Assembly: GCF_002797815.1 (NCBI RefSeq)
Contig: NZ_PGFJ01000002.1
Coordinates: forward strand, 992,001-1,056,000
Direction of reading: 5' to 3'
From: Mucilaginibacter auburnensis
GTDB lineage: Bacteria; Bacteroidota; Bacteroidia; Sphingobacteriales; Sphingobacteriaceae
Length of the DNA stretch: 64,000 bases
Below, one piece after another: positions 37,604 to 62,143 of the stretch. Positions within the stretch are counted from its first letter, which is position 1. Every line of letters starts with the position of its first letter. The position numbers and the translations under genes were made by a program. The notes beneath the pieces are model-generated. The model was not told where the DNA came from and ran no database searches. It saw only the letters and a program-made list of their open reading frames with translations.

Positions 37604-38290
37604 CTAATGGTTGTGCTTTTTATGAATATCCTTTACCAAACACAATTTCTTTATCTCGTCAATCTTTATAACAAATGGCGCGTACTTAAGGCGGTTGCCT
37701 ATCATCTCTGTAACATTGTCTGAGTGCGCTATTACCTCATCCGGACTGTTACCGGCTAATAATCTTTTATACATGCGGTAATCGCCCCATTCAATATAAT
37801 ATACCTCGCCTGGCAGTATCTTCTTATCGTGGATGATCTTTAAGGCTACCCAACAACCGTTCTCTAAATAAGGATACATGGAGTGCCCCCAAACCGGTAG
37901 CGCAAAGTCGCAGTCCTCAATACCGGGAAAATTCATTCTGCCCACCGCCTGCTTGTCGTTTATATCATTATAAACCTCCACACCCGATGCTGTTACAGAA
38001 ACCTCAAACATTGGAATGCCGCCACCCATTACAGCTACTGGCTGTGCAGTTGTTCCATTATCCAGGTAATCTTTAAAATATTCTTTAAATACCTTGAATT
38101 TTTCAGGATCTATATTCTGCCTGCTTTTAATTATTTCTGTAATAGAGCTGGTAGAATTAAATCCAAGTATCTCGGCCAGCTGCGCATTGCCTGTAAATGC
38201 CTTTCCCTTTAACTGGTTATACAGAATTATGAATTCCAATGTTTCCGGTCTTACGGTTTTGATTTTGTTGGGCTTGTCTTTGGTTTCCAT
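37604..38290 (-). CDS. Prophage CI/LexA-like S24 repressor
   Basis: 228 residues. The N-terminal HTH (about 15-75, AQLAEILGFNSTSSITEIIKSRQN) is followed by a C-terminal S24 peptidase domain with Ser137 in WGHSMYPYLENG and Lys175 in YRMYKRLL, the LexA-type self-cleavage dyad. This predicts RecA-stimulated inactivation and SOS induction of the prophage. It is transcribed away from the late genes, and a promoter and repeated ATACAG words lie in the divergent space. Confidence 0.9.
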   Translation of the reverse strand: METKDKPNKIKTVRPETLEFIILYNQLKGKAFTGNAQLAEILGFNSTSSITEIIKSRQNIDPEKFKVFKEYFKDYLDNGTTAQPVAVMGGGIPMFEVSVTASGVEVYNDINDKQAVGRMNFPGIEDCDFALPVWGHSMYPYLENGCWVALKIIHDKKILPGEVYYIEWGDYRMYKRLLAGNSPDEVIAHSDNVTEMIGNRLKYAPFVIKIDEIKKLCLVKDIHKKHNH

Positions 38291-39200: not shown

Positions 39201-39767
39201 TTACTTTATAAGATTAAATGTGCCGGTAGCACGCTGGTAGGTTGACTTACCCTTGGTGGCAAGTGTAGTATAAAAAGTACCGCGACTGAGTGTACTGTCC
39301 TGCTGGAATTTAATTAGGTAAAGTTTTCCAATATCGCCCGGGCTTATATATTTCGGCAAGGTATATTGAATAGTTCCTTTTTCTTCAGTACTTAACAGCA
39401 ATTGTGTACCTGCTATAGTGGCGTTAGTATCTGGCCGGGCAATACCCGCCGAGCTTATGCCAAAACTCAATGTATGTTCTTTATTGATAGCGGTGATGCC
39501 AAAATATTGCGTACTGTCCAGTTCAACGGTAATAAAAGCAACAGAATCTGTAGCTGCATCAAAGGTATACGTAGAATCGCCTACATTAATTTTTAGCGTG
39601 CCTTTAGTTGCCAGATAAGTACCTGGGCTGTTAACGCTTACAACAGCACTTAAGGAATCTGATTTAACTACCGGTTTTAAACCTACAGGCCGCTCGTCTT
39701 CTTTTTGGCAGGCAGTAAATGCCACAAAAAGAAACATTATATAAGCTATGTGTTTAAATAATTTCAC
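39201..39767 (-). CDS. Lipoprotein of unknown function (likely moron)
   Basis: 188 residues with lipobox FTAC near residue 20, followed by QKEDERP and a beta-rich domain (for example TYLATKGTLKINVGDSTYTF). It is a typical Bacteroidetes surface lipoprotein. It lies opposite to all neighbouring phage genes and is bounded by two TATATTTGTAT copies (39168-39178 and 39891-39901), as a cargo gene might be. A lysogen surface or exclusion role is possible but unproven. Confidence 0.6.
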   Translation of the reverse strand: MKLFKHIAYIMFLFVAFTACQKEDERPVGLKPVVKSDSLSAVVSVNSPGTYLATKGTLKINVGDSTYTFDAATDSVAFITVELDSTQYFGITAINKEHTLSFGISSAGIARPDTNATIAGTQLLLSTEEKGTIQYTLPKYISPGDIGKLYLIKFQQDSTLSRGTFYTTLATKGKSTYQRATGTFNLIK

Positions 39768-39939: not shown

Positions 39940-40395
39940 ATGCCTAAAAAATTATTTAAGAGCGTGGCTGACCTATGCACCCTTGTGGAAGAATACTTTA
40001 AAAGCATTGAGGGTGAATACAGCATGGAGGAAAAGCCGCAAAAAAAATCAGAAGACTCTCCTGCACTACAAAAAGTAACTATCAGGGAGCCTGAACCGGC
40101 AACCATGGCAGGCTTAGCATTGCACCTCGGCTTTAACAGCAGAGACGAGTTTGATAAAATGGAAAAAGCAGGCAAATACTCCGCAACGTTACAACGCGCA
40201 CGTCTCCGCGTAGAGGTAGGTTATGAGAAAAAGCTGCATCAGCAGTCGGCCAGCGGCGCTTTATTCGCTTTAAAAAACATGGGTTGGAATGATAAGCCCG
40301 ACGACAAGCAAGTGCGTTCAAGCACAACCATCGCTATAAAATTAATTGATAGCGGCCCTGCACCTGCATCCAGCGAAAGAGAAGTAGCACTTTGA
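39940..40395 (+). CDS. Terminase small subunit
   Basis: A 151-residue DNA-packaging protein. A central part (about 45-75, TMAGLALHLGFNSRDEFDKME) fits the terminase small-subunit HTH family that recognises the packaging site. A C-terminal helical region ends DKPDDKQVRSSTTIAIKL. It lies 35 bases upstream of the large subunit, as expected. Confidence 0.85.
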   Translation: MPKKLFKSVADLCTLVEEYFKSIEGEYSMEEKPQKKSEDSPALQKVTIREPEPATMAGLALHLGFNSRDEFDKMEKAGKYSATLQRARLRVEVGYEKKLHQQSASGALFALKNMGWNDKPDDKQVRSSTTIAIKLIDSGPAPASSEREVAL

Positions 40396-40430: not shown

Positions 40431-41657
40431 ATGGCAGCACAGGCATCAATACTGTTCAGGCGCAACTATGCCGCTACGGCTCAGGTGGTGGTCAATCAGG
40501 GCGGTACCAGTTCGGGCAAAACATTTGCCATTGAGCAGGTGCTGTTTTGTAAAGCCTGCGAAACCGGCAATCTGGTTATTACGGTTGTTGGGCAGGATAT
40601 TCCGAACCTAAAAGCGGGCGCGCTCAGAGATGCGCTGAAAATATACAACGACTCAGAAGAGATAAAAAGCGCGGTTAAAAGCTTTAATAAAACCGACCGG
40701 ATATTTGAGTTTCATAATGGCTCTATCATTGAGTTTAAGAGCTATGATAATGATCAGGATGCAAAGTCGGGTAAGCGCGACTACCTTTTCGTTAACGAAG
40801 CAAATGGTATAGACTGGCTGATTTACAGCGAACTTGCTTTACGCACAAGGATAAGGATATTTATTGACTACAACCCCAATACCGCTTTTTGGGTGCACGA
40901 TAATTTGCTGGGTAAACCGGGTGTTGAATTGATCATATCCGACCATCGGCATAATCCTTTTTTGGATGATGCCTCGCGCCAAAAGATTGAGGGGTTAAAA
41001 GATGACGACGAAGAACGTTGGAAAGTTTATGCACGTGGCTTAACCGGCAAAATAAGCGGATTGGTACTAACCAACTGGCACTTATGCGATGCGATACCTG
41101 TTGATGCGAGGTTGTTAGCTGCGGGATTAGACTTTGGCTTTACCAATGATGAAACGGGATGTTTGTTGGTCTATCAAAAATCGGGTGAGTTATGGATAAA
41201 CGAAGTTTTGTATGAAACCGGTCTTACCAATCAGGATGTATCTAAAAGATTGTTGCTGGCCGGGTTAACTAAAAGTCACGAGATAGTAGCAGATTCTGCC
41301 GAACCCAAATCAATTGAAGAATTGAAGCGATTAGGATGGTTTATCAGCGCTGCCAAAAAAGGGCCCGACAGCGTTAAGCACTCTATTGATATTTTAAAGC
41401 GCTACAAGCTCAACATAACCCGCCAAAGCGTCAACCTGCGTAAAGAATTGGAGCGTTATAAATGGCGTACAGATGCCTCGGGCAAGGCCACTAACCAGCC
41501 CGTTGACACCTGGAACCACCTGATCGATCCGCTGCGTTATGTGGCGTTAAACAAATTAAAGGTAAACGCAACAGGCGGAACACGTTCCCGTCTGCCACAC
41601 CTCAACACTAATAATAGCAATAACAACGACCTATTGAACCAAATGATATCAGCATGA
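40431..41657 (+). CDS. terL: Terminase large subunit
   Basis: A 408-residue packaging motor. ATPase Walker A is GGTSSGKT (24-31) and Walker B is DYLFVNEA (117-124). The nuclease domain begins near Asp234 (GLDFGFTND), with further acidic residues at about 283 (ADSAEP) and in the C-terminal DTWNHLIDPLRY block. Length matches the PBSX/terminase_3-like family. Its stop overlaps the next start as ATGA. Confidence 0.95.
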   Translation: MAAQASILFRRNYAATAQVVVNQGGTSSGKTFAIEQVLFCKACETGNLVITVVGQDIPNLKAGALRDALKIYNDSEEIKSAVKSFNKTDRIFEFHNGSIIEFKSYDNDQDAKSGKRDYLFVNEANGIDWLIYSELALRTRIRIFIDYNPNTAFWVHDNLLGKPGVELIISDHRHNPFLDDASRQKIEGLKDDDEERWKVYARGLTGKISGLVLTNWHLCDAIPVDARLLAAGLDFGFTNDETGCLLVYQKSGELWINEVLYETGLTNQDVSKRLLLAGLTKSHEIVADSAEPKSIEELKRLGWFISAAKKGPDSVKHSIDILKRYKLNITRQSVNLRKELERYKWRTDASGKATNQPVDTWNHLIDPLRYVALNKLKVNATGGTRSRLPHLNTNNSNNNDLLNQMISA

Positions 41658-45235: not shown

Positions 45236-47233
45236 ATGCTTCAACTTTACATAAACGACACGCTGGTTGACCTGAGCGACGACAGCCCTATTGCCCTAAC
45301 CTTCCAGATCAATAACCTGGCCGAGGTAAAAAACCAGCAGGGTAACACTTCTAACCAGTTCAAAATACCGCTTACGCAACACAACCGGCGCATACTGGGC
45401 TTTCCGGACGATGTAGCTTTTTGCTCTGACGCTCCATACAAAAAATATCCTGCAAAACTGGTTCAGGATGGCCTGGAGATCATCCCTTATGGCCTGGCCG
45501 AACTGAACAGTGTTGATAATGATACGGCAAGCGTAACCATACTATCAGGCAATGTTGATTTTTTTGATGCCATTGATGGTAAGTTGTACGACATGGGCGA
45601 AATTTTTAAGCCTTATGAACATAAGTGGGACGTTGACAGCGTAGCTTCATCACAAACCAAAACTTCGGGCTGGATATATCCGGTTATTGATTATGGCAAT
45701 TTACCAAGTTATCCCCAGCCCATTAACGTTAACTATTTAAGGCCGGGTTTCTTCATCAAAACAGCCATTGATGAGATAGTTAAAAAAACAGGATATCGGG
45801 CTTCAGGTTCTTTGTTGAATGATCCGCTTTATCCTAAACTCATTGCTCAGTTTAGTAACAGCGCCTGGGAACACGGCACCATTTTTCAAAACAACGAAGC
45901 TGATGATCCGTACAGGTGTGTTGTAAAAACCAATGCCGACCAAACGTTTAACAAAAACAATTACGCCGACAGGTTTAGATTTTATAATACTGTTGTAGAT
46001 AAAAGCAATTTATGGCAAACAGATAACGGAAACCATGTATACCGCGCGCCGGCCACCCTTTCTGTTTCGGTTGTATTTGAATTTTCGGTTGAGTTGATGG
46101 GCGATTTGAGTAAGAATAATGAGGATCAACATTTTGGCATTGTGTTTCGCATAAAAAAGCACCCCAATGCTGATTTCCTTACCGATATCACTATAGATCT
46201 GAGCACAGACACCCAACCTGTTACCTGGCAGTTATACCGGCGTGTGGCAAACAATGTCAAACTGTCTTACGAGTTAGAATTATTGCAAGGCGAAGGTGTT
46301 TACGTTGAGTACAACGTTAATAATAGCAAGCATGGTACCGTTGTTGTTAAGCAAGATGCCACCTTAACCATTAACACTAAGCGGCAAAATGTACTTTACG
46401 GGCACAATGTGCAGTGCGAACGCATATTCCCGGATATATCGGCAAAAGACCTGTTAAAAGATACGCTGCAACGCTTTGGTATAATTTGCCAGACCGATAA
46501 TGCAAAACGTACCGTATCATTCAACTCCTTCCGCGATATTGTTAACAACATACCTGTGGCAAAAAACTGGTCGGATAAGTGTTTGGACCAGGGTAAGGCT
46601 ATCAGTTTTCAGTTAGGTGGCTACGCGCAGGAAAACAAACTGAAGTACAAAGAAGACGACGCGGTACTGCCTATAGGCTTTGCCGACGCGGTTATTAAAG
46701 TTAATGACGCAACGCTACCGGCATCGGCAGACCTGTTTGAAAGCCAGTTTGCACCTACGCTTGCATCGCCTTATATGAACAGCAGCGTAGCTCAAATAAA
46801 AATGACCGAGCATGACGGTAATGAATTTAACATTGGCGTTGCACCACGCATTTTAATAGACCAAAAGCTACCGCTTGGCGGTGGAAAAACAGTAACATTT
46901 ACTGATGGCCGCGGTAATAACCGAATAGTTAATGACTATATAAGCACACCGTACTTTCATAAAGTTGATGCACCCGATATTGAAGGCAACTATGGCCAGG
47001 CCAGTTTAAAGTTTGATAACCTGCGCAAACGCTACTACCCCGAACTGGAGAAGATACTAAAGCAAACCAAAAAAGTTGTACGTTATTTTTTACTGACGCC
47101 GCTTGATATATTAGAGCTTGACCTGATGGTACCGGTTTACATTGAGCAGGATAGCGCCTACTATTATATTAATAAAATTGATGCCTGGCGCAAGGGGCAG
47201 GCTACTAAAGTAGAGTTGGTGAAGTTGGGGTAA
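45236..47233 (+). CDS. Large phage tail protein of unknown subtype
   Basis: A 665-residue protein starting LQLYINDTLVDLSDDSPIALTFQ, a type found repeatedly in Bacteroidetes phages and annotated only as hypothetical. The middle contains PGFFIKTAIDEIVKKTGY and a C-terminal DLMVPVYIEQDSAYYYINK. No enzymatic motif is visible. It probably forms a tail or baseplate part. Its last ~70 bases are also duplicated at about 47690-47763. Confidence 0.6.
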   Translation: MLQLYINDTLVDLSDDSPIALTFQINNLAEVKNQQGNTSNQFKIPLTQHNRRILGFPDDVAFCSDAPYKKYPAKLVQDGLEIIPYGLAELNSVDNDTASVTILSGNVDFFDAIDGKLYDMGEIFKPYEHKWDVDSVASSQTKTSGWIYPVIDYGNLPSYPQPINVNYLRPGFFIKTAIDEIVKKTGYRASGSLLNDPLYPKLIAQFSNSAWEHGTIFQNNEADDPYRCVVKTNADQTFNKNNYADRFRFYNTVVDKSNLWQTDNGNHVYRAPATLSVSVVFEFSVELMGDLSKNNEDQHFGIVFRIKKHPNADFLTDITIDLSTDTQPVTWQLYRRVANNVKLSYELELLQGEGVYVEYNVNNSKHGTVVVKQDATLTINTKRQNVLYGHNVQCERIFPDISAKDLLKDTLQRFGIICQTDNAKRTVSFNSFRDIVNNIPVAKNWSDKCLDQGKAISFQLGGYAQENKLKYKEDDAVLPIGFADAVIKVNDATLPASADLFESQFAPTLASPYMNSSVAQIKMTEHDGNEFNIGVAPRILIDQKLPLGGGKTVTFTDGRGNNRIVNDYISTPYFHKVDAPDIEGNYGQASLKFDNLRKRYYPELEKILKQTKKVVRYFLLTPLDILELDLMVPVYIEQDSAYYYINKIDAWRKGQATKVELVKLG

Positions 47234-47237
47234 GCGA

Positions 47238-47432
47238 TTAATCTTCTTTTAAATTACCCCAAAAGTTGCGATCTTTTTCTTTCAGGTCTTTATCAGCATA
47301 AAAAAAAATAGTATAGTCGCTCCCGCCACCTTGAGTTATGGCAATTATATCTTCTCTAACGATACAGTTGTCGTCCACAAATTGCAGGAGCTGCACATAA
47401 CTTAAAAAACTTCTGCCTTTCAAGATTTTCAT
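47238..47432 (-). CDS. Small paralogous protein, copy A
   Basis: 64 residues, opposite to the late genes. It shares the scheme MK-[IV]-LK...F...L..F[VI]..N.I.RED-I..I, then FFYAD..L.EKDRN.WG.LK. Two further paralogs lie at 47766 and 48797. The start is 34 bases from a decayed tape-measure start at 47467, so it reads out divergently. The function is unknown; a phage regulator or inhibitor would fit the size but nothing proves it. Confidence 0.65.
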   Translation of the reverse strand: MKILKGRSFLSYVQLLQFVDDNCIVREDIIAITQGGGSDYTIFFYADKDLKEKDRNFWGNLKED

Positions 47433-47765
47433 GATTAATGATCTTTTTTGATAAAACTAAACCAATATGACAAATAAAAATAATATATACATCGACCCCA
47501 CTGGTCGAAGTTTAGCGTAACTAACTTCGACCTTAAATATCACAAGCTTTTAGCTTGACTGGTTTCTTGTGTCGAATTTACGACCATGTAGTGAATTATT
47601 TAAATTTCAAAAAAATAGCAAAAAAAGCCTATAAACCGATATTTAGTACTAAGCCTCATGACATTCGTTTACCTTGATCACGATAGCATCACTATTACAT
47701 TAATAAAATTGATGCCTGGCGCAAAGGGCAAGCTACTAAGGTGGAGTTGATGATGTTGGGGTAGG
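47433..47765. other. Decayed copy of the tape-measure start plus a duplicated tail-gene 3' end
   Basis: The frame at 47467 encodes MTNKNNIYIDPTGRSLA and stops; it matches the first residues of the tape measure (MADNNKNISIDIE). A hairpin follows: GGTCGAAGTT-TAG (47503-47515) against CTAACTTCGACC (47521-47532). At about 47690-47763 the last ~70 bases of the upstream tail gene recur with few changes. Otherwise no gene is visible. Confidence 0.65.
47503..47532. repeat. Hairpin in the decayed tape-measure copy
   Basis: GGTCGAAGTTTAG and CTAACTTCGACC pair almost perfectly around five bases. It lies exactly where the tape-measure frame is cut, so a small inserted element may have broken it. Confidence 0.55.
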
Positions 47766-47963
47766 TTAATCTTTTAATTTACCCCACATATTGCGCTCTT
47801 TTTCCTCAACCTCTGAATCGCCGTAGAAGAAAAGTATGCAACCCGTTGAATGTGAGTTACTCGAAATAATAACATGGATGTCATCTCTCCTGATATTGTT
47901 ATCATTTACAAAAGTAGCCAGTGGGCCATGCCCGGCAAATTCTTTAGATTTCAAAATTTTCAT
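47766..47963 (-). CDS. Small paralogous protein, copy B
   Basis: 65 residues from the ATG at 47963; a longer in-frame start at 47981 adds six residues, but the shorter form aligns with copies A and C. It shares NNIRRDDI and LFFYGDSEVEEKERNMWGKLK with copy A. The start lies 28 bases from the truncated tape-measure gene's ATG, giving the same divergent arrangement as the other copies. Confidence 0.65.
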   Translation of the reverse strand: MKILKSKEFAGHGPLATFVNDNNIRRDDIHVIISSNSHSTGCILFFYGDSEVEEKERNMWGKLKD

Positions 47964-47991
47964 AAATAAATATAGTATCAATTATAATATT

Positions 47992-48762
47992 ATGGCAAAC
48001 AACGACAAAATTTCTATAGATGTAGAAATTAGTGCTTCAGGACAACAACAATTGAATCAATACAACAGAGCTCTTGATGGTTTGAGAATGGCAATTAACA
48101 ACTTGTCAACTCCCCTTAATGTTCTCGACAAAAACTTATCAAGATTTTCCAATTCAGTCAATAAACTAAATGAAGAAAATATTTCACTGGATGCGACAAT
48201 TAAAAATGTTGCTACCGGGTTTGGTAGTTTTAGAAGTATTATACAGGGATTAGAGGATGTTCTAAAACTTTTCAAGTTGCAAGCAGCTGCATTAAATACT
48301 ACTTTAACTGGCGGCATTGGTTTAGTACTTGCCTTTTTACCGGAAATAATAAATCTTGTTACTTGTTTTTTCAAAGGCAAAGGAGCAGTTGCCCAGATGA
48401 CTGATAAACTTAAAGGCTTTAATGAAATAATGAAAGCCGCCAACAGCGACACCGCAACTCAAACTGCAAAACTTAATTTGCTTTATAAAGCAGCAACCGA
48501 TGTTAAAAAATCTGATGAGGCGAGGGCGGAAAGTATAAAACTGTTAAATAAAGAATTCCCTGGCTATTTTGAACACCTAAGCACCGAGGCCTTTAAAAAC
48601 GGCAAAGCAAACGAAACCTATTTCAAACTGACCCAAACAATAATTGAAAACGCCAAGGCCAAAGCAGCGTTAAATAAAATTACAGAAGAATCGGCCAAAA
48701 TTCTGGATGCGGAACATAAAACAATACTCCACTTAGCGGAAGGCTTAGCCATCGCCGCCTAA
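47992..48762 (+). pseudogene. Truncated tape-measure copy (N-terminal third)
   Basis: 256 residues from the ATG at 47992. The first ~245 residues parallel the N-terminus of the full tape measure at 49019: NDKISIDVEISASGQQQLNQY, a hydrophobic stretch (about 95-125) and QMTDKLKGFNEIMKAANSD, which is identical in both. After LDAEHK it leaves the full-length sequence and stops. Bases from 48366 match 49396 onward almost exactly, which points to recent duplication or gene conversion. It might still make a short protein, but as a tape measure it is non-functional. Confidence 0.75.
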
Positions 48763-48796
48763 CTAAGGATATCCCATAAAAAAACGACGTTTGTTG

Positions 48797-48985
48797 CTAA
48801 TCCCAAAAACCCTTCTTCGGCAGTTCAACATTTTCATCATGATAAAAGAACACGACGTATTCGCTTGACGAAGCAAAATTAGGGGTATTTATAGAAAGAA
48901 TATCTTCTCTTTCAATCTTCTGTTGATTAATAAACTTGGTCAATGAGTTGTGAGCTGTAAATTTCTCCGATTTTAAAACTTTCAT
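48797..48985 (-). CDS. Small paralogous protein, copy C
   Basis: 62 residues: MKVLKSEKFTAHNSLTKF, QKIEREDILSI and VVFFYHDENVELPKKGFWD. The C-terminus is shorter and lacks the EK-RN-WG string of A and B. Its start is 33 bases from the ATG of the intact tape measure, so this pair is the probable original or best-kept unit. Function unknown. Confidence 0.65.
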   Translation of the reverse strand: MKVLKSEKFTAHNSLTKFINQQKIEREDILSINTPNFASSSEYVVFFYHDENVELPKKGFWD

Positions 48986-49018
48986 GGCTATAAATTAAAC
49001 TAATCAATAATAAAAATT

Positions 49019-51130
49019 ATGGCAGATAATAACAAAAACATATCTATAGATATAGAAATCGATGCTTCCGGGCAGCAAATTATCAATCAATACAAAACTG
49101 CATTTGATTCTTTAAGGGTTTCGATAAATAGTTTATCGCAACCGGTAAACAAACTTAACGGCGAAATTTCAAAGTTATCAGGTGTTGTTAGTGATTTAGG
49201 TAAACAAAATGGGTCTTTGGGAGAATCTATAGTTAAGATCGGTGAAAATTACACCCAACTTAAATTAACCTTTGAAACAGTAAAGGCAGGAATAGATGCT
49301 TTAAAAGCCGGAGCGCTGACATTAACGACGGCGTTAACCGGCGGTCTATCCATACTATTAATATTCGGACCGGAGTTAATAAGCATAATAAGTTCTTTTT
49401 TCAAAGGCAAAGAAGCAGTTGCCCAGATGACTGATAAACTTAAAGGCTTTAATGAAATAATGAAAGCCGCCAACAGCGATGCCGCAACTCAAACTGCAAA
49501 GCTTAATTTGCTTTATAAGGCAGCAACGGATGTAAAAAACTCGGATGAAGCCAGAGCCGAAAGCATAAGAACGTTAAAAAACGAATATCCCGACTACTTT
49601 GGCAAATTAACCGATGAGGAAATAAAAAACGGCAGAGCGAATTCCACGTATTTAAAACTCACCCAAACAATCATTGAAAACGCCAGGGCCAAAGCAGCGT
49701 TAAATAAAATCACAGAAGAATCGGCCAAAGTTCTGGATGCGGAATATAAGATTCAGAAAATTAATACGGCGCATGCACAAGAACAGCATGCTCTGGATAA
49801 ACAAAAACAAGACTTAGATAAAAAAGCCGGTCGATCCGGAGGTTACAGATTGGGGAACGCTTTGCAATATATTGCAACCGAGAAAAAAAAGAGCGATGAA
49901 CGATGGGAAAAGAGCCTTGCGGAAACACAAAAAATAATTGACAAAGCCGACAAATCGATTGAAGGATATACAAAACTGGGTGGCGGCGCAAACAAAATTG
50001 CCAGTTTGGCTGCACAAGAAGATGGTAAAAGCGATGTCAATACGGTGTCCCTAAGGGTTAGTACTGGCAAAAATAAACCAAAAAATCCCAAACCTGCTGT
50101 AGTTGACAGTAATAAAACTATGGGTGAACCAATGCAGGGATTGGATTTTAACCAGAATAAATACTTCAAAGAATCGCTTGACAAAAATGTTCAACAAGAT
50201 TTAGATGCACAAAGAAATGCAGCAGTAAAAAAAGTTCAGATAAGCAGCACTTTTGACGAAAGCAAAGAGCAGCAAAAAATTGAGGAAACAGAAAAAAGCG
50301 GACATCATACCAGAGCGCTCCAGATGCAAATAGATCTGGCAAATCAGCAGTACCACATTGCTATTGAGGCAGCCCGCAAAAAAGGTGAAGACACCACAAA
50401 AATTGAAGAAAGTTATGCTAAGAAAAAAGCTGCACTTGAAGATCAGTTAACGCAGTCGAAAATACACGCCGGCGACAAATTTATTGATGCAGCCATGAAA
50501 GGAAGCAAAAAAGATTCGGCTATTTTTAAAGCTGCTTTCCTGGCAAAAAAAGCCACTTCAATAGCCGATACTATTATTAGCACCAAACGGGCTGTGATGG
50601 ATTCGTTCAAGGCCTACGCAGGCATTCCGTTTATTGGTCAGGCATTAGGTATTGCGCAAGCGGTATTTATGGGCGCACAGGGCGCTATGTCTATAGCAGA
50701 AATAGCCAAACAAAAGCCTGGGTTTGCTGGTGGCGGCCGGTTCAGGTCAGATGGCAAAGGGGCTCTCCTATCAGGTTACAGCCGCACGGATGATACCAAC
50801 GCCTATCTGCGCTCCGGTGAAGCCGTAGTGGTATCAGAAGCCATGCGTAACCCTTGGGCGCGTAATTTAGTAAGCGCCATTAATGTAGCTTATGGCGGCA
50901 GGGATTTCTCGGTAGCCAACGCGGGCAGTGGCTATGCTATTGGTGGTATTTATACAGATGGCGGTAACTCCAACAGATATTACAGTCAGCCGGCTAATGA
51001 TGTGAAGGATCTGGCCAATACTTTGGCGTACCAAATGATCAACAACTTCCCGCCTGTGTATGTAGATGTAAAGGATATCAACACACAGCAAAGCATACTG
51101 GCTAAAACGGTGGAGAGGGTGAATTTATGA
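49019..51130 (+). CDS. Tape-measure protein
   Basis: 703 residues. The N-terminal half has helical and coiled-coil repeats. A hydrophobic region (about 95-125, GGLSILLIFGPELISIISSFF) and a second (about 510-570, KKATSIADTIISTKRAVMDSFK to MSIAEIAKQ) fit tape measures that enter the host membrane. The C-terminus has FAGGGRFRSDGKGALLSGYSR and TDDTNAYLRSGEAVV, common in tape-measure C-termini. If about 0.15 nm per residue holds, the tail would be about 105 nm. It lies downstream of a chaperone, as expected. Confidence 0.85.
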   Translation: MADNNKNISIDIEIDASGQQIINQYKTAFDSLRVSINSLSQPVNKLNGEISKLSGVVSDLGKQNGSLGESIVKIGENYTQLKLTFETVKAGIDALKAGALTLTTALTGGLSILLIFGPELISIISSFFKGKEAVAQMTDKLKGFNEIMKAANSDAATQTAKLNLLYKAATDVKNSDEARAESIRTLKNEYPDYFGKLTDEEIKNGRANSTYLKLTQTIIENARAKAALNKITEESAKVLDAEYKIQKINTAHAQEQHALDKQKQDLDKKAGRSGGYRLGNALQYIATEKKKSDERWEKSLAETQKIIDKADKSIEGYTKLGGGANKIASLAAQEDGKSDVNTVSLRVSTGKNKPKNPKPAVVDSNKTMGEPMQGLDFNQNKYFKESLDKNVQQDLDAQRNAAVKKVQISSTFDESKEQQKIEETEKSGHHTRALQMQIDLANQQYHIAIEAARKKGEDTTKIEESYAKKKAALEDQLTQSKIHAGDKFIDAAMKGSKKDSAIFKAAFLAKKATSIADTIISTKRAVMDSFKAYAGIPFIGQALGIAQAVFMGAQGAMSIAEIAKQKPGFAGGGRFRSDGKGALLSGYSRTDDTNAYLRSGEAVVVSEAMRNPWARNLVSAINVAYGGRDFSVANAGSGYAIGGIYTDGGNSNRYYSQPANDVKDLANTLAYQMINNFPPVYVDVKDINTQQSILAKTVERVNL

Positions 51131-51521: not shown

Positions 51522-51890
51522 TTTTCAAACAGCAAAAAAAATTTAATTACTGACACACTTTTGTCACCACTTTGGTGAAAAACAGTACCGATATTTGTAT
51601 CAACCGTCTGAACCTTGATTCGCTTAATTAAAGGATTATCAGATTCAAGTCTGCGAAACCTGCACCACAGATCAATCAGGCAACCTGAAAACCAGCTAAC
51701 AAAAACTCTTCCGGACTTGCGGACTTCCCCAACTTCGGACTCAACAAAAACAATCTTCCGGACTTTCCGACTTGCGGACTTCGGACTCAAAAAAACAATC
51801 TTCCGGACTTTCCGACTTGCGGACTTCGGACTCAAAAAAACAATCTTCCGGACTTTCCGACTTGCGGACTTCCGGACTCAACAAAACATC
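51522..51890. other. Leader of the capsid-protease operon with tandem repeats
   Basis: 369 bases with no preferred gene start. It holds the second TGACACA palindrome (51551-51566), a GATATTTG promoter-like box near 51590-51597 and three 45-bp tandem repeats (51751-51880). The frame is open through it into the protease, but the translation is only the repeat. Confidence 0.6.
51751..51880. repeat. 45-bp tandem repeat, three copies
   Basis: Units start at 51751, 51796 and 51841 with period exactly 45. Each has CTTCCGGACTTTCCGACTTG and GCGGACTTCGGACTC with A-run spacers. A degenerate half unit precedes them at about 51709-51750. There are no unique spacers, so this is not CRISPR. Confidence 0.85.
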
Positions 51891-53084
51891 ATGAACCACA
51901 AAATCTACCTGTACGATACCGATACAGACAGCATCGGTACCGGTAATTTATCATCGGCCCATATAAAATTGCAGTTGGAAGCAGCAGCCGGCCGCGATGT
52001 AGACGTTCACATTAGCTCGGCAGGTGGCAGCGCCTTTGATGCCATTGCCATTTACGACCTGTTAAAGAAATATCCGGGTAATGTAACTACTTACATTGAT
52101 GCGCTGGCTGCCTCCGCCGCCTCGGTTGTTGCGATGGCCGGCAGCAACATTGTAATGAGCAAATATGCTTTGTTAATGATACACAAACCCATTGCGGGCA
52201 GCGGAGGCAATGCCGATGAACTGCTTAAAGACATTCATTTATTGAATGTGGTACAATCTCGCCTGGCGGCAATTTACGAAGACAAAACCGGGTTAGACGG
52301 CGTTACCATTAACAGTCTTATCAACGCCGTAACCTGGCTTACTGCCGACCAGGCGCTTGACCTCGGATTCATTGACTCCATTGATGATTACCAGGTCGAG
52401 ATTACCAATACGGCCATTATCGGCAACTACACCAGCAATGCGCCTGCATTTTACCAACGCTACATCAACAAACTTTTAAACCCAAATAACAGCACAATGA
52501 ACATTGAAAACAGAGAACTTATTGAAAAAACAACATCGGTTTTGGATAAGATCATGAACTTTTTTAAGAAAGTGGTTAACAAGCAAACCATTACAGACAA
52601 AGGCACCCTGCACCATGCCGGCGAATTGAGCGAAGGCGCGGAAGCCTACCAGGATGAGGACATGATCAAACCCGCCATTACCGATAGCTACACTACATCA
52701 ACCGGTAAAAAAATAAGTGTAAAAAACGGCAAGGTTGAAAAGGTTGTTGAACCCGAAGCAGAGCCGGAGGATGAGGAAGAAGAAGCATTGCCCGAAAACT
52801 TTTTTAAGCGTAGCGGTAAGCAAAAAGACATTCAAAACCTCGTACAAGAAATGAAAGCCAAGCTACATGCCCAAAACGCTTTACTTACTGAAGCTAAAGC
52901 TGCGTTAGAAGAAGCCGGTCGCAGGTTAAACAAAACACACACCGAAATTAAAAACGAAATTAAATCAGACTTTACTCCTGAAGGATCAAAACGCAGCAGC
53001 AAAGCCAAAACAGAGGCTGATCCTTTCTTCGCTCCTAAAACTACATTAGCGCAAAACGCTGTAAAAAAGGCAGTGGCGCGCTAA
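51891..53084 (+). CDS. Prohead protease (ClpP-type) fused to scaffold-like tail
   Basis: 397 residues from the ATG at 51891; longer in-frame starts run through the tandem repeat and were rejected. The N-terminal ClpP/S49 domain (about 1-185) shows HISSAGGSAFDAIAIY, the catalytic-Ser context DALAASAASVVAMAG and the His context LMIHKP. The C-terminal part (about 200-397) is charged and coiled, as in scaffold fusions (for example KDIQNLVQEMKAKLHAQNALL). It lies directly upstream of the capsid gene, as expected. Confidence 0.88.
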   Translation: MNHKIYLYDTDTDSIGTGNLSSAHIKLQLEAAAGRDVDVHISSAGGSAFDAIAIYDLLKKYPGNVTTYIDALAASAASVVAMAGSNIVMSKYALLMIHKPIAGSGGNADELLKDIHLLNVVQSRLAAIYEDKTGLDGVTINSLINAVTWLTADQALDLGFIDSIDDYQVEITNTAIIGNYTSNAPAFYQRYINKLLNPNNSTMNIENRELIEKTTSVLDKIMNFFKKVVNKQTITDKGTLHHAGELSEGAEAYQDEDMIKPAITDSYTTSTGKKISVKNGKVEKVVEPEAEPEDEEEEALPENFFKRSGKQKDIQNLVQEMKAKLHAQNALLTEAKAALEEAGRRLNKTHTEIKNEIKSDFTPEGSKRSSKAKTEADPFFAPKTTLAQNAVKKAVAR

Positions 53085-53212: not shown

Positions 53213-54421
53213 ATGGCTCAATTTACATTTACAAACAACACCTACGCCGGCGAAGCGCTGGCCGGGTTTATGGCAAGCACACTGCTGGAGGCCGATTCGG
53301 TTAAGCGTGGTTTGCTAACCGTTATCAACGACGTAAAATCGCGCAAAGTGATCCTCGACGTTGATGACGATGTGGTACTGCAAAACCCATCGGGCACCTT
53401 TACCGACCAGGGAACTACAGCATCACAAAAAGAAAGTTACCTTGACCCTGTTGTATACGAGTTTATGAAACAGGAACAATGGGATAAGCTGGTACAATCA
53501 TGGGAGGCCCAAAGCCTTAAACCGGGCGCCTTTATGGATTATGAAGGCGTAGTTGACCTGTCGGATTTTATGGTACAGCGTTACCTTACCAAAATACAAA
53601 TAGCTAACGAGCGTTTGTACTGGTTAGGCAAAGGAGCTACCAAAGAAGCGGCATTTACAGCAGGCTTTGACGGCTTATTGCCAAGCATCGCGGCAGCATC
53701 GGGTGTTTACAAAGTGGGCTTAGGTAAATCGGCTACTTCAATGGCCGCTACCGCTATCAGCAACACCGGCATAGTAACAGTTTCAAGCACCGCAACTTTA
53801 TCTGACGGCGACGTGGTGACCCTTACCGCGGTAACCGGCAGCAGCAAAGACACTACTAATGGCGGAGGCGGCATTGACGTGCAAGGGCAATCGTACTTTA
53901 TCCAGGTGCAAAGCGCAACTACTTTTAAATTAGTGCGTAACTACAATGAAATTAACACCCGTAAGGCGGCAACATTCAGCGGCTCGGCAACAGCTGCTAC
54001 CGTTAACTACATTAACGCCAGCAACGTATTGGGCGTGTTGAGCAGCGTGTATGCGCAGTTAGACCCTGCAGACCGTAGCCAGGAAGATTTTAACCTGCAA
54101 ATACCTTTACACGTAGGTTATGCTTATGCGCAAGCTCAGGCTGATAAAGCGGTTAATGTGTTGAACGCCTTTACAGACAGAAAGAAAATGGATTACTTAG
54201 GTCTTCCGTTACAACTAATGAACCACTGGCAGGCTAATACCATTTTAGGCGCGCGTTCATCTAACCTCTTCCTGGGTGTAGATCTTTTAGGCGACTCATC
54301 AGAACTGTCAACCGTTTACATGAAGCCCTACACCAACGACAACGTGGTACGCATGAAAGCCCGTATGAAAGCGGCAGTTAACTTCAAATTTGCCAACGAG
54401 TTATTCTACCTGTCGGCCTAA
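53213..54421 (+). CDS. Major capsid protein
   Basis: 402 residues directly after the protease-scaffold gene. An N-terminal alpha/beta region, then a T/S/A/G-rich insertion (about 195-265), is followed by NVLGVLSSVYAQLDPADRSQEDFNLQIPLHVGYAY and a C-terminal VVRMKARMKAAVNFKFANELFYLSA, which resembles HK97-type capsid C-termini. The call rests on position, length and this C-terminal pattern. Confidence 0.8.
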   Translation: MAQFTFTNNTYAGEALAGFMASTLLEADSVKRGLLTVINDVKSRKVILDVDDDVVLQNPSGTFTDQGTTASQKESYLDPVVYEFMKQEQWDKLVQSWEAQSLKPGAFMDYEGVVDLSDFMVQRYLTKIQIANERLYWLGKGATKEAAFTAGFDGLLPSIAAASGVYKVGLGKSATSMAATAISNTGIVTVSSTATLSDGDVVTLTAVTGSSKDTTNGGGGIDVQGQSYFIQVQSATTFKLVRNYNEINTRKAATFSGSATAATVNYINASNVLGVLSSVYAQLDPADRSQEDFNLQIPLHVGYAYAQAQADKAVNVLNAFTDRKKMDYLGLPLQLMNHWQANTILGARSSNLFLGVDLLGDSSELSTVYMKPYTNDNVVRMKARMKAAVNFKFANELFYLSA

Positions 54422-55179: not shown

Positions 55180-56460
55180 ATGAAAACCTATCTGCCACAA
55201 ATTGAGCGACGTATTATAGTTAGGCCTAACCAAACCTTTGGCATACTTAACTATGATATGGATAACGCCTATCCGCAACGCATGCTGGAACTGGTGGCCC
55301 AATCGCCTACTGCTAAAGATTGCTGGAACAAGCGCGCAAAATTTATAGCAGGTAATGGCTTTGAACAAAAAGAACTGGGCAAGCTGGTAATTAACAGCCG
55401 AGGGCTCACACTTGCCAAGCTTTTAAAAGCTGTAGCTAAGGATATTGCCTTGTTTACCGGCTTTGGCATACATGTTAATTATAATGCCAACTATAAAATA
55501 GCGTCTGTTAATTACGTAAAGTTTGAAGATATCCGCATGGGTGATATTGACAATGCTGATACTGCCGATAAATACGCTATCTACTCAGACTGGGGCCGGA
55601 AAACATGGAAACACATTACCCGCAGCAAAGTATGCTTTATTGATAAGTATAATCCGGATGCCGAAACAATAAAAAAACAGGTTACCAAGGCAGGCGGCTG
55701 GAAAAACTATAAAGGGCAACTTTACTACTTTAACCCAGCGGTTGATGATTACCCATTGATTGAAGCTGACAGCGTTTGGGAAGACTTTGAAACCGAAGCC
55801 GGTATTAAAACTTTCAATAACCGTGAAGTAACCACCGGGTTCTTGCCGTCAACCATGCTCTTTATGCAATCGCGTAGAGAAGAAGCGGATAACGCCGGCG
55901 GTGATACCGAACAAAGCGTTGGTAACAGTCCATCTCAATTAGAAAAAGACCTCGGCACTTTCCAGGGAGCTAAAAGCGCGCAAAAGATCATTGTGATCGA
56001 GTATGAAGACGAGAGCCAGAAACCCGAGTTCCAGCCGTACTCCATTCAAAATAATGACAAGCTTTTTGAAAGCACGGAGCGTTCTGTTGAGGCGCGCATC
56101 ATCAAAGGCTTTTCGGTTCCGAAAGAACTGATCAACGCTGAAAAATCATCGGGCTTGAGCAATGGCGGTGAAAAAAAAGAAGCGATACGTGAATTCAACG
56201 ACAATACCGCACCGGATAGGTTAGAACTATCAGAAACGTTTGAAGAGATATTCAAAAACTTTTATACTAACATCAATCCATCCGGCAACTGGAATATAAT
56301 ACCTGTGCCTGCTACGGTTGCAGATGACAGTCCGGGTAGAACCGCTGGTTCCTCCATCAATCAACTGCTGTTATCTGACATTCCACGCGAAAACAAAATA
56401 GCGATTCTAATTCATGCCTACGGCTTCAAACAGCACGAGGCTGAAAACATGGTAGCATAA
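55180..56460 (+). CDS. Portal protein
   Basis: 426 residues. Portal features include NAYPQRMLELVAQSPTAKDCWNKRA, the strand YVKFEDIRMG, a long helical C-terminal region and SVPKELINAEKSSGLSNGGEKKEAIREFNDNT (stated here as the key S-V-P-K-E-L and N-G-G-E-K-K elements), the usual stem-like portal ending. It lies far from the terminase gene, after the capsid gene; most phages place portal between the two. Confidence 0.82.
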   Translation: MKTYLPQIERRIIVRPNQTFGILNYDMDNAYPQRMLELVAQSPTAKDCWNKRAKFIAGNGFEQKELGKLVINSRGLTLAKLLKAVAKDIALFTGFGIHVNYNANYKIASVNYVKFEDIRMGDIDNADTADKYAIYSDWGRKTWKHITRSKVCFIDKYNPDAETIKKQVTKAGGWKNYKGQLYYFNPAVDDYPLIEADSVWEDFETEAGIKTFNNREVTTGFLPSTMLFMQSRREEADNAGGDTEQSVGNSPSQLEKDLGTFQGAKSAQKIIVIEYEDESQKPEFQPYSIQNNDKLFESTERSVEARIIKGFSVPKELINAEKSSGLSNGGEKKEAIREFNDNTAPDRLELSETFEEIFKNFYTNINPSGNWNIIPVPATVADDSPGRTAGSSINQLLLSDIPRENKIAILIHAYGFKQHEAENMVA

Positions 56461-60082: not shown

Positions 60083-60925
60083 ATGGCTCAACATCAAACA
60101 ATCATAAAACCTAGAGGTAAAGACTGGCAGCATAAAGTATTAATGTCGCTTTCGAAATCTAAAGACTTTCCAACTAGATTAAGAATTTTAGGCTTATTAA
60201 AACGTGTATTCAACTTAGACTTGCTTAAATATGAGACTCCATCTGGCTTAAAACTTTTAATAGATTTTGATGATTGGGTTCAAACTCAAATATATTATCA
60301 CGGGAATTATGAGCCTGTGAGTTTAGCACTATTTAAACGAATAGCAAGAAACTCTAGAGTAATACTTGATTTAGGAGCGCATATTGGTCAATATGCATTA
60401 GAATGTGCACAAGACGATAAAGACCAATCAAAAGAGATATTTGCGATAGAAGTTAATCCGAAAACATTTACCTATTTATTGAACAACATTCAAATAAATA
60501 AATTTCGACAAGTAAAACCTATTTTAGGTGCATTGAGCGAAAGTAATGAAATTTTGAATATATCAATTCCCGCGTATTGGAATATGGGAAATACCCAAAT
60601 TTCAAAAACAGATGAGGGTTTAGATAGCTTTAGTTCGGCATCGTTTAATATTTACGATTTGACTAAAAAATATAACTTAAAAACTATAGACCTCGTAAAG
60701 TTAGATGTAGAGGGTCAGGAGTTTAATATTTTAGTTAGCTTTTTTAAGATTGGGATATATCCGCGTTATGTGATGTTTGAATTCATTCCTGACGCCTTTT
60801 CTGATGCAAATAAAGTTATTGCACTTCTAAAAGAGAATGGATATGAAATACGTGACGTTGAAGGATCTATGTATTTTGATGGACATTCCGTTTTAGAGCA
60901 AAATCTAATTGGTGAGAAAATTTAA
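60083..60925 (+). CDS. FkbM-family methyltransferase
   Basis: 280 residues. The SAM-binding motif I is VILDLGAHIGQYAL (about 95-105) followed by EIFAIEVNPKTFTYLLNNIQ; the FkbM motif is TIDLVKLDVEGQEFNIL. Such enzymes often O-methylate sugars in surface polysaccharides. The gene is more AT-rich than its neighbours and sits between structural and lysis genes, typical of a cargo gene that alters the host surface. Confidence 0.85.
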   Translation: MAQHQTIIKPRGKDWQHKVLMSLSKSKDFPTRLRILGLLKRVFNLDLLKYETPSGLKLLIDFDDWVQTQIYYHGNYEPVSLALFKRIARNSRVILDLGAHIGQYALECAQDDKDQSKEIFAIEVNPKTFTYLLNNIQINKFRQVKPILGALSESNEILNISIPAYWNMGNTQISKTDEGLDSFSSASFNIYDLTKKYNLKTIDLVKLDVEGQEFNILVSFFKIGIYPRYVMFEFIPDAFSDANKVIALLKENGYEIRDVEGSMYFDGHSVLEQNLIGEKI

Positions 60926-61051
60926 GTTTGTAATAAGCATCTAAATCGACCTCTTATCAACAAGAAATTATTTTTAATAAACAGCAACCTCAATTCCCCC
61001 TGTCTTAACAAACAACACTTAAAACCCTTAAGCCTCCCTACTTCAATCCGC

Positions 61052-62143
61052 TTAACCACCATCAGCAAAACGGCGCCTCAATTTCAACATTGGCTTTTCA
61101 AAAAAATAATAGGATATTGAAGCAACGCCAAGCGCGCCAGCAATGTTGATTAGCTTTGAAGACGTTAAAACACTGTCGGTTGATAGTAAAAATAATTGCT
61201 GCCAGATATAAATGCTGTAAGATATTAAACCGATAAAACGGATGATTGGATTGCTTAACAGTTGGGTGAAAAAGCTAAACGGGTTAAGGTTAAGAACAAT
61301 TACCGTTGCAATAAGGGATGGGAACACAAACAAGCCGCAGTATGGTATTGGCAATATAAATTTCTCGGTATGAATTAATACTGCGATTATAAAAAGCACA
61401 AAACTTAAATATCTATTCGAACTTGTGCTTTTAATCACCACTACACCTTTGAATAACAATATGGCGGCAAATGACCCTATTAATATACACACGGTTTTTC
61501 CAAAAAGATTGATGATCACGAATGCAGCTGCGTGAAGTAAGTGATTGGTGTAAAATGCCCCCGTATTTGTGTAGCCTAAAAACGCTATTATGGGAATAAA
61601 TACAATAAGACACATAACCACTTTAATGTATTTGTTTATGCTGGTGACTAACAGAAAAGGAAACAAAATGTAAAACTGCTCCTCAACAGACAAGCTCCAA
61701 AAATGACCAACATACCAACTGTCGCCTTTTATGAAAGGTATATTCTGATAAAAAAACGCGGCAGACAAAAATGATTTTAAGTCAACTTTAAGTACCGAGA
61801 AGTAACTAAGGAGTAAAAGCGTTAGTAAATACAGATAGGCTACCGGTAATATCCTGAATAGCCTCCTGATGTAAAATCTTTTAAGAGAAATCTTATTAAA
61901 GACAATTTTTTCTTTGATAAGCAATGAAGTGATCAAAAAGCCACTTATTACGAAAAAAATCTCAACACCAATATCACCTGCAAAATATTTACTAAAGCGG
62001 GTATCCATAAATACATGGCTTAGCATAACAATTATTATCGCCACCCCGCGTAAACCATCAAGTCCGATGAAATGCTTACTACTTAAACGTGCGGGTACAG
62101 ACACCTCGTTCTTAATCAGTGTCGAGAAAAAAATAGTAACCAA
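61052..62143 (-). CDS. Acyltransferase-3 family (OafA/YrhL-like) membrane protein
   Basis: 363 residues with about ten membrane helices. The signature HFIGLDGLRGVAIIIVMLSH, VEIFFVISGFLI and GHFWSLSVEEQFYILFP are typical of acyltransferase 3, which adds acetyl groups to O-antigen or other polysaccharides. It is AT-rich and opposite to the late operon. Together with the FkbM gene it suggests lysogenic change of the host surface to block reinfection. Confidence 0.9.
   Translation of the reverse strand: MVTIFFSTLIKNEVSVPARLSSKHFIGLDGLRGVAIIIVMLSHVFMDTRFSKYFAGDIGVEIFFVISGFLITSLLIKEKIVFNKISLKRFYIRRLFRILPVAYLYLLTLLLLSYFSVLKVDLKSFLSAAFFYQNIPFIKGDSWYVGHFWSLSVEEQFYILFPFLLVTSINKYIKVVMCLIVFIPIIAFLGYTNTGAFYTNHLLHAAAFVIINLFGKTVCILIGSFAAILLFKGVVVIKSTSSNRYLSFVLFIIAVLIHTEKFILPIPYCGLFVFPSLIATVIVLNLNPFSFFTQLLSNPIIRFIGLISYSIYIWQQLFLLSTDSVLTSSKLINIAGALGVASISYYFFEKPMLKLRRRFADGG

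Follow-up and report, generated by a model that had tools for sequence, protein, structure and literature searches.

The DNA analysed here, 64,000 nucleotides of Mucilaginibacter auburnensis (contig NZ_PGFJ01000002.1, positions 992,001 to 1,056,000; hereafter the window), carries a cluster of phage-like head and tail genes, within which a very small minus-strand gene occurs three times, each time back to back with the start of a gene for a tape-measure protein (TMP). The small genes belong to one family, here called SM. Displaced copies, which no longer stand beside an intact TMP gene, are referred to as orphans. From left to right, the region contains:

45236..47233, plus strand: conserved upstream tail gene, called UP (665 aa; phrog_33698 match), the left border of the hypervariable region
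47238..47432, minus strand: SM partner gene, copy 1 (64 aa), an orphan whose ATG is separated by 34 nt from the TMP-like start at 47467
47467..47520, plus strand: TMP-start remnant (about 10 recognisable codons, then a stop), identified by its sequence and by a geometry as in other orphan modules
47503..47532, no strand assigned: repetitive extragenic palindrome (REP)-like inverted repeat GGTCGAAGTT..AACTTCGACC at the truncation point of the first TMP copy
47691..47763, plus strand: duplicated 3' end of the upstream tail gene, which opens the second unit (90% nucleotide identity to 47160-47232)
47766..47963, minus strand: SM partner gene, copy 2 (65 aa from its ATG), an orphan
47992..48762, plus strand: truncated N-terminal segment of a TMP (256 codons; 60% identity to the intact TMP)
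48797..48985, minus strand: SM partner gene, copy 3 (62 aa), paired with the intact TMP
49019..51130, plus strand: intact TMP gene (703 aa), with a variable N-terminal region and a highly conserved last 130 aa

Each of the three units is a cassette, composed of a partner gene and the N-terminal part of a TMP, in a hypervariable spot of the cluster. The original prediction had described three paralogous small genes facing TMP-type starts at 28-34 nt, and its coordinates, spacing and paralogy all hold: the start-to-start distances are 34, 28 and 33 nt for the ATGs at 47467, 47992 and 49019, the three SM proteins share 37-41% identity in pairs, and a translated genome search recovers the paralogues with E values of 1e-8 and 4e-7. 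The intact gene encodes a genuine TMP, residues 115-256 being homologous to annotated Bacteroides phage tape-measure proteins, and it also matches PHROG tail tape-measure families. The truncated copy stays open for 256 codons with 60% identity to residues 4-245 of the intact TMP, and nucleotide identity reaches 81% at 48339-48638. The dead copy at 47467 is a weaker case. About 10 codons (MTNKNNIYID) resemble a TMP start before the inverted repeat and the stop, and the remnant alone gives no significant BLAST match; we count it as a TMP start because the geometry fits and because other loci hold equally short remnants (MADDNKIS, MANNKNIS). What had been missed is a duplication of the 3' end of the upstream tail gene, so that the repeated block comprises the tail-gene end, the small gene and the TMP start. 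This arrangement is not due to chance, since it recurs in tens of other loci.

The full inverted-repeat sequence of the window (33 nt) occurs once in the genome, and a related palindrome is found in locus L074. REP-like palindromes lie at or near TMP cut points in the window (47503-47532) and in loci L063 (~9400, 9500 and 9895), L074 (10054-10076) and L075 (~10150). The idea that such palindromes actively bring about the truncations was considered and set aside, given the single genomic occurrence of the 33-nt sequence.

The cassette arrangement is general, as seen in about 70 Mucilaginibacter loci. We compared 200 genomes and fetched 60 loci, then 97 more, partly from the same genomes, the second set being gathered with the conserved TMP C-terminus as query. 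The SM family was present in 25 of the 200 genomes, every one a Mucilaginibacter, and TMP relatives in 70. SM homologues beside TMP genes proved abundant, the two starts lying 18-85 nt apart across SM units. Full-length homologues of UP (45-66% identity) border the gap in all compared loci. The gap between this tail gene and the TMP spans 65 nt to ~4.5 kb and contains fragments of TMP fronts together with a few gene families: one membrane-anchored family (49 copies in 28 loci), SM (35 copies in 21 loci), lipoproteins and secreted proteins. Locus L063 holds five SM genes and locus L088 several TMP fragments. The conserved frame is thus formed by the upstream tail gene and the TMP C-terminus, while the TMP N-terminus and the adjacent partner gene vary. 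At most other loci a plus-strand gene for an exported or membrane protein occupies the slot, and the lipoprotein (LP) partners have a typical lipoprotein start; the SM proteins carry neither a signal nor a lipobox.

Partner family and TMP N-terminus are associated. When each TMP start (intact or fragment) was taken as a unit with the gene directly upstream, nearest-neighbour purity reached 47 of 62 in the first set (permutation mean 18.8, maximum 34) and 62 of 85 in the second (permutation mean 21.9, maximum 39), two sets that overlap in genomes and are not fully independent. Nearly every SM unit of the second set (23/24) had another SM unit as its nearest N-terminus. The signal resides in the TMP N-terminus (z 7.4) and is much weaker in the two controls, the TMP C-terminus (z 1.9) and the tail-gene end (z 1.3), which is why host relatedness does not explain the pairing. 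A partner lies within 330 nt of 57 of the 68 intact TMPs. Sequence divergence within the membrane family also parallels that of the TMP N-terminus (Mantel r 0.47-0.52, p 2e-4; 0.49 after the C-terminus signal is removed), and nearly all matches of this family in 120 genomes sit in the slot between tail gene and TMP. Host descent correlates at 0.74 with the tail gene and at 0.65 with the TMP C-terminus; for the TMP front the values are 0.38, 0.21 and 0.04 as one moves through its first 300 residues. The TMP front therefore follows host descent poorly compared with the rest and behaves as an exchanged hypervariable segment inside a vertically inherited machine.

Displaced cassettes are preserved unequally. 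Among 31 of them, drawn from all partner families, the partner is open and full-length in 30, and the TMP piece is truncated in all 31, six having no start codon; the partners beside these start-less remnants are 45, 172, 175, 191, 206 and 207 codons long. Broken SM copies do exist, at least two of them, as truncated pieces in loci L085 and L093. SM copies are under purifying selection, with a ratio of non-synonymous to synonymous substitution rates (dN/dS) of 0.14 when pooled and 0.25 between orphans. In one orphan pair whose TMPs are broken at different points (L063:10013 and L065:7558), dN/dS is 0.03, with 94% amino-acid identity at a dS of ~1. The three window copies are too divergent among themselves for a useful dN/dS. 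We rejected dN/dS as proof of selection after displacement, since TMP remnants score the same as their partners; most of the divergence therefore predates displacement, and selection after it is better supported by the unequal survival of open frames. The earlier claim that the small proteins are selected while the TMP copies decay is thus supported in its first half, given the dN/dS of ~0.14 among related copies and the 30 open orphan partners; the second half needs rewording, the TMP copies being mostly cut structurally rather than eroded by point decay. A scan for the -33 box of a putative SM promoter within the first 8 TMP codons kept in orphans found it in 8 of 27 cases against a shuffle mean of 1.9, but it was also found at 9 of 58 non-SM TMP starts.

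The SM protein encoded by copy 3 (48797..48985) is predicted to fold as beta-alpha-beta-beta (mean predicted local distance difference test score, pLDDT, 85.5), and the membrane partner as N-terminal helices plus a beta domain (mean pLDDT 92.3). Neither predicted fold had a match in the PDB (best E 0.6 and 0.24, respectively). Pfam, PHROGs, NCBIfam and PADLOC gave nothing credible for SM, DUF3139 falling below the cutoff (E 0.001) and for one member only, and no SM homologue was found in the phage records searched. Uncharacterised proteins of ~50 aa from crAss-like phages (BFVD A0A7M1RYC4 and A0A8S5QU20) share the SM fold, with a Foldseek probability of 1.0, a TM-score of ~0.7 and a root-mean-square deviation of 1.0-1.3, at E values of only 4e-3 to 5e-3 and ~20% identity.

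While the arrangement is well supported, the function of the partners has to be deduced from it. The fact that the family of the slot gene tracks the type of TMP N-terminus suggests that this gene encodes a partner of the TMP with a role in immunity or exclusion. We thus propose, with roughly even confidence, that the partners are immunity or exclusion factors against particles with a matching TMP front and that the displaced ones are kept as orphan immunity genes. The original prediction had spoken of a regulatory or host-directed role, which was too vague and found no specific support, the slot elsewhere holding envelope-targeted proteins on either strand. In the mechanism we envisage, recombination between related clusters would place a new cassette beside the conserved TMP body, and older cassettes would be left upstream. 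The partner would then block particles whose TMP has the matching N-terminus. Envelope-located partners may act at the moment of DNA injection when the TMP passes into the inner membrane (compare HK97 gp15, Ltp and SNIPE, below), and SM, which has no export signal, may work in the cytosol, where it might for instance bind the TMP N-terminus and so prevent tail assembly or entry (compare Tab). Orphan partners would be retained because they still protect against relatives that use old TMP types.

Several observations weigh against this proposal. Divergence among SM proteins shows no correlation with that of the TMP N-terminus (Mantel r 0.04, p 0.37), a genuine weak point where SM is concerned; over the 9 intact pairs only, r is 0.35 (p 0.04). 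One conserved SM subfamily (58 aa) directly follows the tail gene, at a distance from every TMP start, and also occurs as a solitary chromosomal gene with conserved neighbours (loci L266-L270, L272, L273, L069, L081 and L083): beside pyrE and diverging from it in another genus of the host's family, and at other places, in Mucilaginibacter too, near an exonuclease gene, accC or mdh. In library scans, no partner of any family matches a known immunity or defence family. The surviving TMP remnants likewise have a low dN/dS (0.15), and the count of open frames may be biased because the gene finder misses badly broken partners. Finally, tight linkage could produce the pairing without any interaction.

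Linkage without interaction is in fact the main rival explanation. The partners may be hitch-hiking morons, inserted into a spot between tail gene and TMP that tolerates insertions, serving unrelated host functions and tied to the N-termini only through breakpoints inside the TMP. The solitary SM genes, which would suit a general small protein of these bacteria, the lack of SM co-variation and a slot common to several non-homologous families all speak for this possibility. We nevertheless consider it rather unlikely: the membrane family is almost confined to the slot and its co-variation with the N-terminus persists once the C-terminus signal is removed, intact TMPs nearly always have a partner close by, and hitch-hiking leaves the replacement of TMP N-termini unexplained.

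The short distance between SM and TMP starts and the orientation of SM genes against the structural operon might instead suggest that the SM genes are local regulators with a repressing or tuning effect on the TMP or the late operon, possibly by antisense transcription. This is improbable, as the slot gene of other loci is mostly a plus-strand gene for an exported or membrane protein and the very small beta-alpha-beta-beta fold of SM matches no known DNA-binding protein. The units could also be neutral debris, duplicated by recombination, in which short open reading frames survive by chance; SM genes have only 45-65 codons, some copies are broken, and the dN/dS of the TMP remnants is close to that of their partners. 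Yet long partners (146-228 codons) survive too, even beside start-less TMP remnants, and the orphan pair described above holds its amino-acid identity at dS ~1, so that we give this account a similarly small chance. Pairing by N-terminus type would, lastly, be expected of a chaperone or accessory subunit that each TMP N-terminus requires for assembly. Such a role is very improbable: it fails to explain the intact orphans left after TMP loss, the export signals and transcription against the late operon.

The cassettes lie within a cluster whose other recognisable genes and left-hand neighbours in the window are:

37604..38290, minus strand: S24 (LexA/CI-type) regulator with conserved synteny, to the left of the cluster (PF00717, E 4.5e-7)
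39201..39767, minus strand: conserved left neighbour (lipoprotein-like), kept also in genomes that lost the cluster
39940..40395, plus strand: terminase small subunit (phrog_606, E 6e-15)
40431..41657, plus strand: terminase large subunit (phrog_6672, E 1e-30)
51615..53084, plus strand: head maturation protease (phrog_94, E 4e-61)
53213..54421, plus strand: probable major capsid protein, 71-91% identity between species (by position and conservation; PHROG match weak only)
55180..56460, plus strand: portal protein, 71-84% identity between species with the cluster (phrog_11226, E 2e-81)

The head-tail gene set is complete: the terminase subunits (TerS and TerL), portal, protease, TMP and a CHAP endolysin are assigned by family and the capsid by position, and the cluster also holds fibre and lysis genes. 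Between the latter two lie genes for an FkbM-type methyltransferase and an acyltransferase (60083-62143), which perhaps serve surface modification. The 5' part of the protease reading frame (51699-51880) contains four tandem 45-base repeats, the first degenerate, in frame from a TTG start. Just downstream of the cluster, on the minus strand of L221 (6263-15073), lies the gene for a 2936-aa protein that looks Rhs/YD-repeat-like and carries an HEFGH zinc-metalloprotease-like motif near its end.

No integrase or replication gene was recognised among the reading frames scanned at ~36.7-65 kb, several of which match no family. The cluster mostly keeps one chromosomal address. On the right, a YCF48-like host gene lies within 25 kb of it in 23 of the 29 genomes that have both on one contig; on the left the neighbours are conserved, and cluster-free genomes keep the neighbour and a terminase remnant (L239, L240). 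The portal gene is present in one copy per genome, except in one metagenome-assembled genome. The capsid protein (71-91%) and, within the flank-compared set, the portal protein (77-83%) are better conserved than the flanking host gene (47-59%), and the divergence of the structural genes follows that of this flanking gene (Mantel r 0.58-0.81). From its genes, with mostly one address, no recognised integrase or replication gene and co-divergence with its flank, the whole cluster (37-64 kb of the window and L221 1-3419, compared with L222-L257) looks like a domesticated, vertically inherited element resembling a gene transfer agent (GTA), not a mobile prophage. The lysogen setting assumed by the original prediction is therefore probably wrong. 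We know of no hypervariable TMP region described for GTAs.

It is tempting to speculate further, though we regard the following picture as doubtful, that the cluster encodes a domesticated gene-transfer or killing particle whose polymorphic TMP N-terminus is recognised by a cognate guard protein of the recipient. Swapping the N-terminus would shift kin specificity and orphan guards would constitute an immunity archive, making a tape measure the basis of kin recognition, in a mirror image of contact-dependent inhibition (CDI). If the guard function proposed above is right, the TMP N-terminus would determine specificity and be subject to diversifying exchange, it would have guard genes dedicated to it, and past TMP variants would be recorded in the arrays of orphan guards. 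The loci would provide many candidate TMP-targeting exclusion proteins in testable pairs, several of their families being absent from Pfam, PHROGs and PADLOC, and would point to a GTA-like element in Bacteroidota. The role of the variable TMP end during DNA entry could then be tested directly by cassette swaps.

The exclusion of phages by proteins that act on tape measures is already known. HK97 gp15 is reportedly a small phage-encoded envelope protein that blocks injection, with the TMP implicated. Ltp of phage TP-J34 is a small phage-encoded envelope lipoprotein that blocks injection and targets the TMP (PMC3952083). However, Ltp acts on the positively charged C-terminus of the TMP, whereas Mucilaginibacter TMPs vary at the N-terminus, and its character as an exported lipoprotein is not shared by the window SM proteins, so that the likeness is one of architecture, through other partner families only. 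For an unexported SM protein the closest functional model is Tab, the tail assembly blocker of Pseudomonas phage JBD26, which is expressed from the resident prophage, recognises the TMP of an invader and blocks its tail assembly (PMC10884400). Tab phages need an anti-Tab for their own tails, whereas Mucilaginibacter has cassettes with exchange of the N-terminus. SNIPE is a further established exclusion protein that acts on the TMP (PMC13190303).

RcGTA and other GTAs combine a complete phage structural gene set with vertical inheritance and have no recognisable integration or replication genes (PMC8987985). The Mucilaginibacter cluster appears to share these traits, with its complete head-tail set, no recognised integration or replication functions and, in most genomes, a single copy at a fixed address. 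It differs from RcGTA in belonging to another phylum and in having an S24 regulator.

The organisation of the cassettes recalls the orphan toxin-immunity modules of CDI and Rhs systems (cdiA-CT/cdiI arrays), in which older modules stay arrayed beside the active gene and the small gene remains expressible, although the large-gene fragments are often without start signals (PMC3150448). In both cases (i) a large delivered protein has a polymorphic end that is swapped along with a small gene next to it and (ii) displaced modules keep an intact gene in the immunity position and a truncated large gene. The TMP cassettes are a mirror image, in that the N-terminus varies and the array lies upstream, on a phage tape measure. 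Unlike in the C-terminus of CdiA and Rhs proteins, no toxin domain was recognised by family scans in the variable TMP segment, and the partners are unrelated to CdiI or RhsI in library searches. TMP-targeting exclusion and CDI/Rhs orphan arrays are thus both known, and since the structure described here combines the two, we favour the explanation that the partners guard the cell against particles with a matching TMP front.

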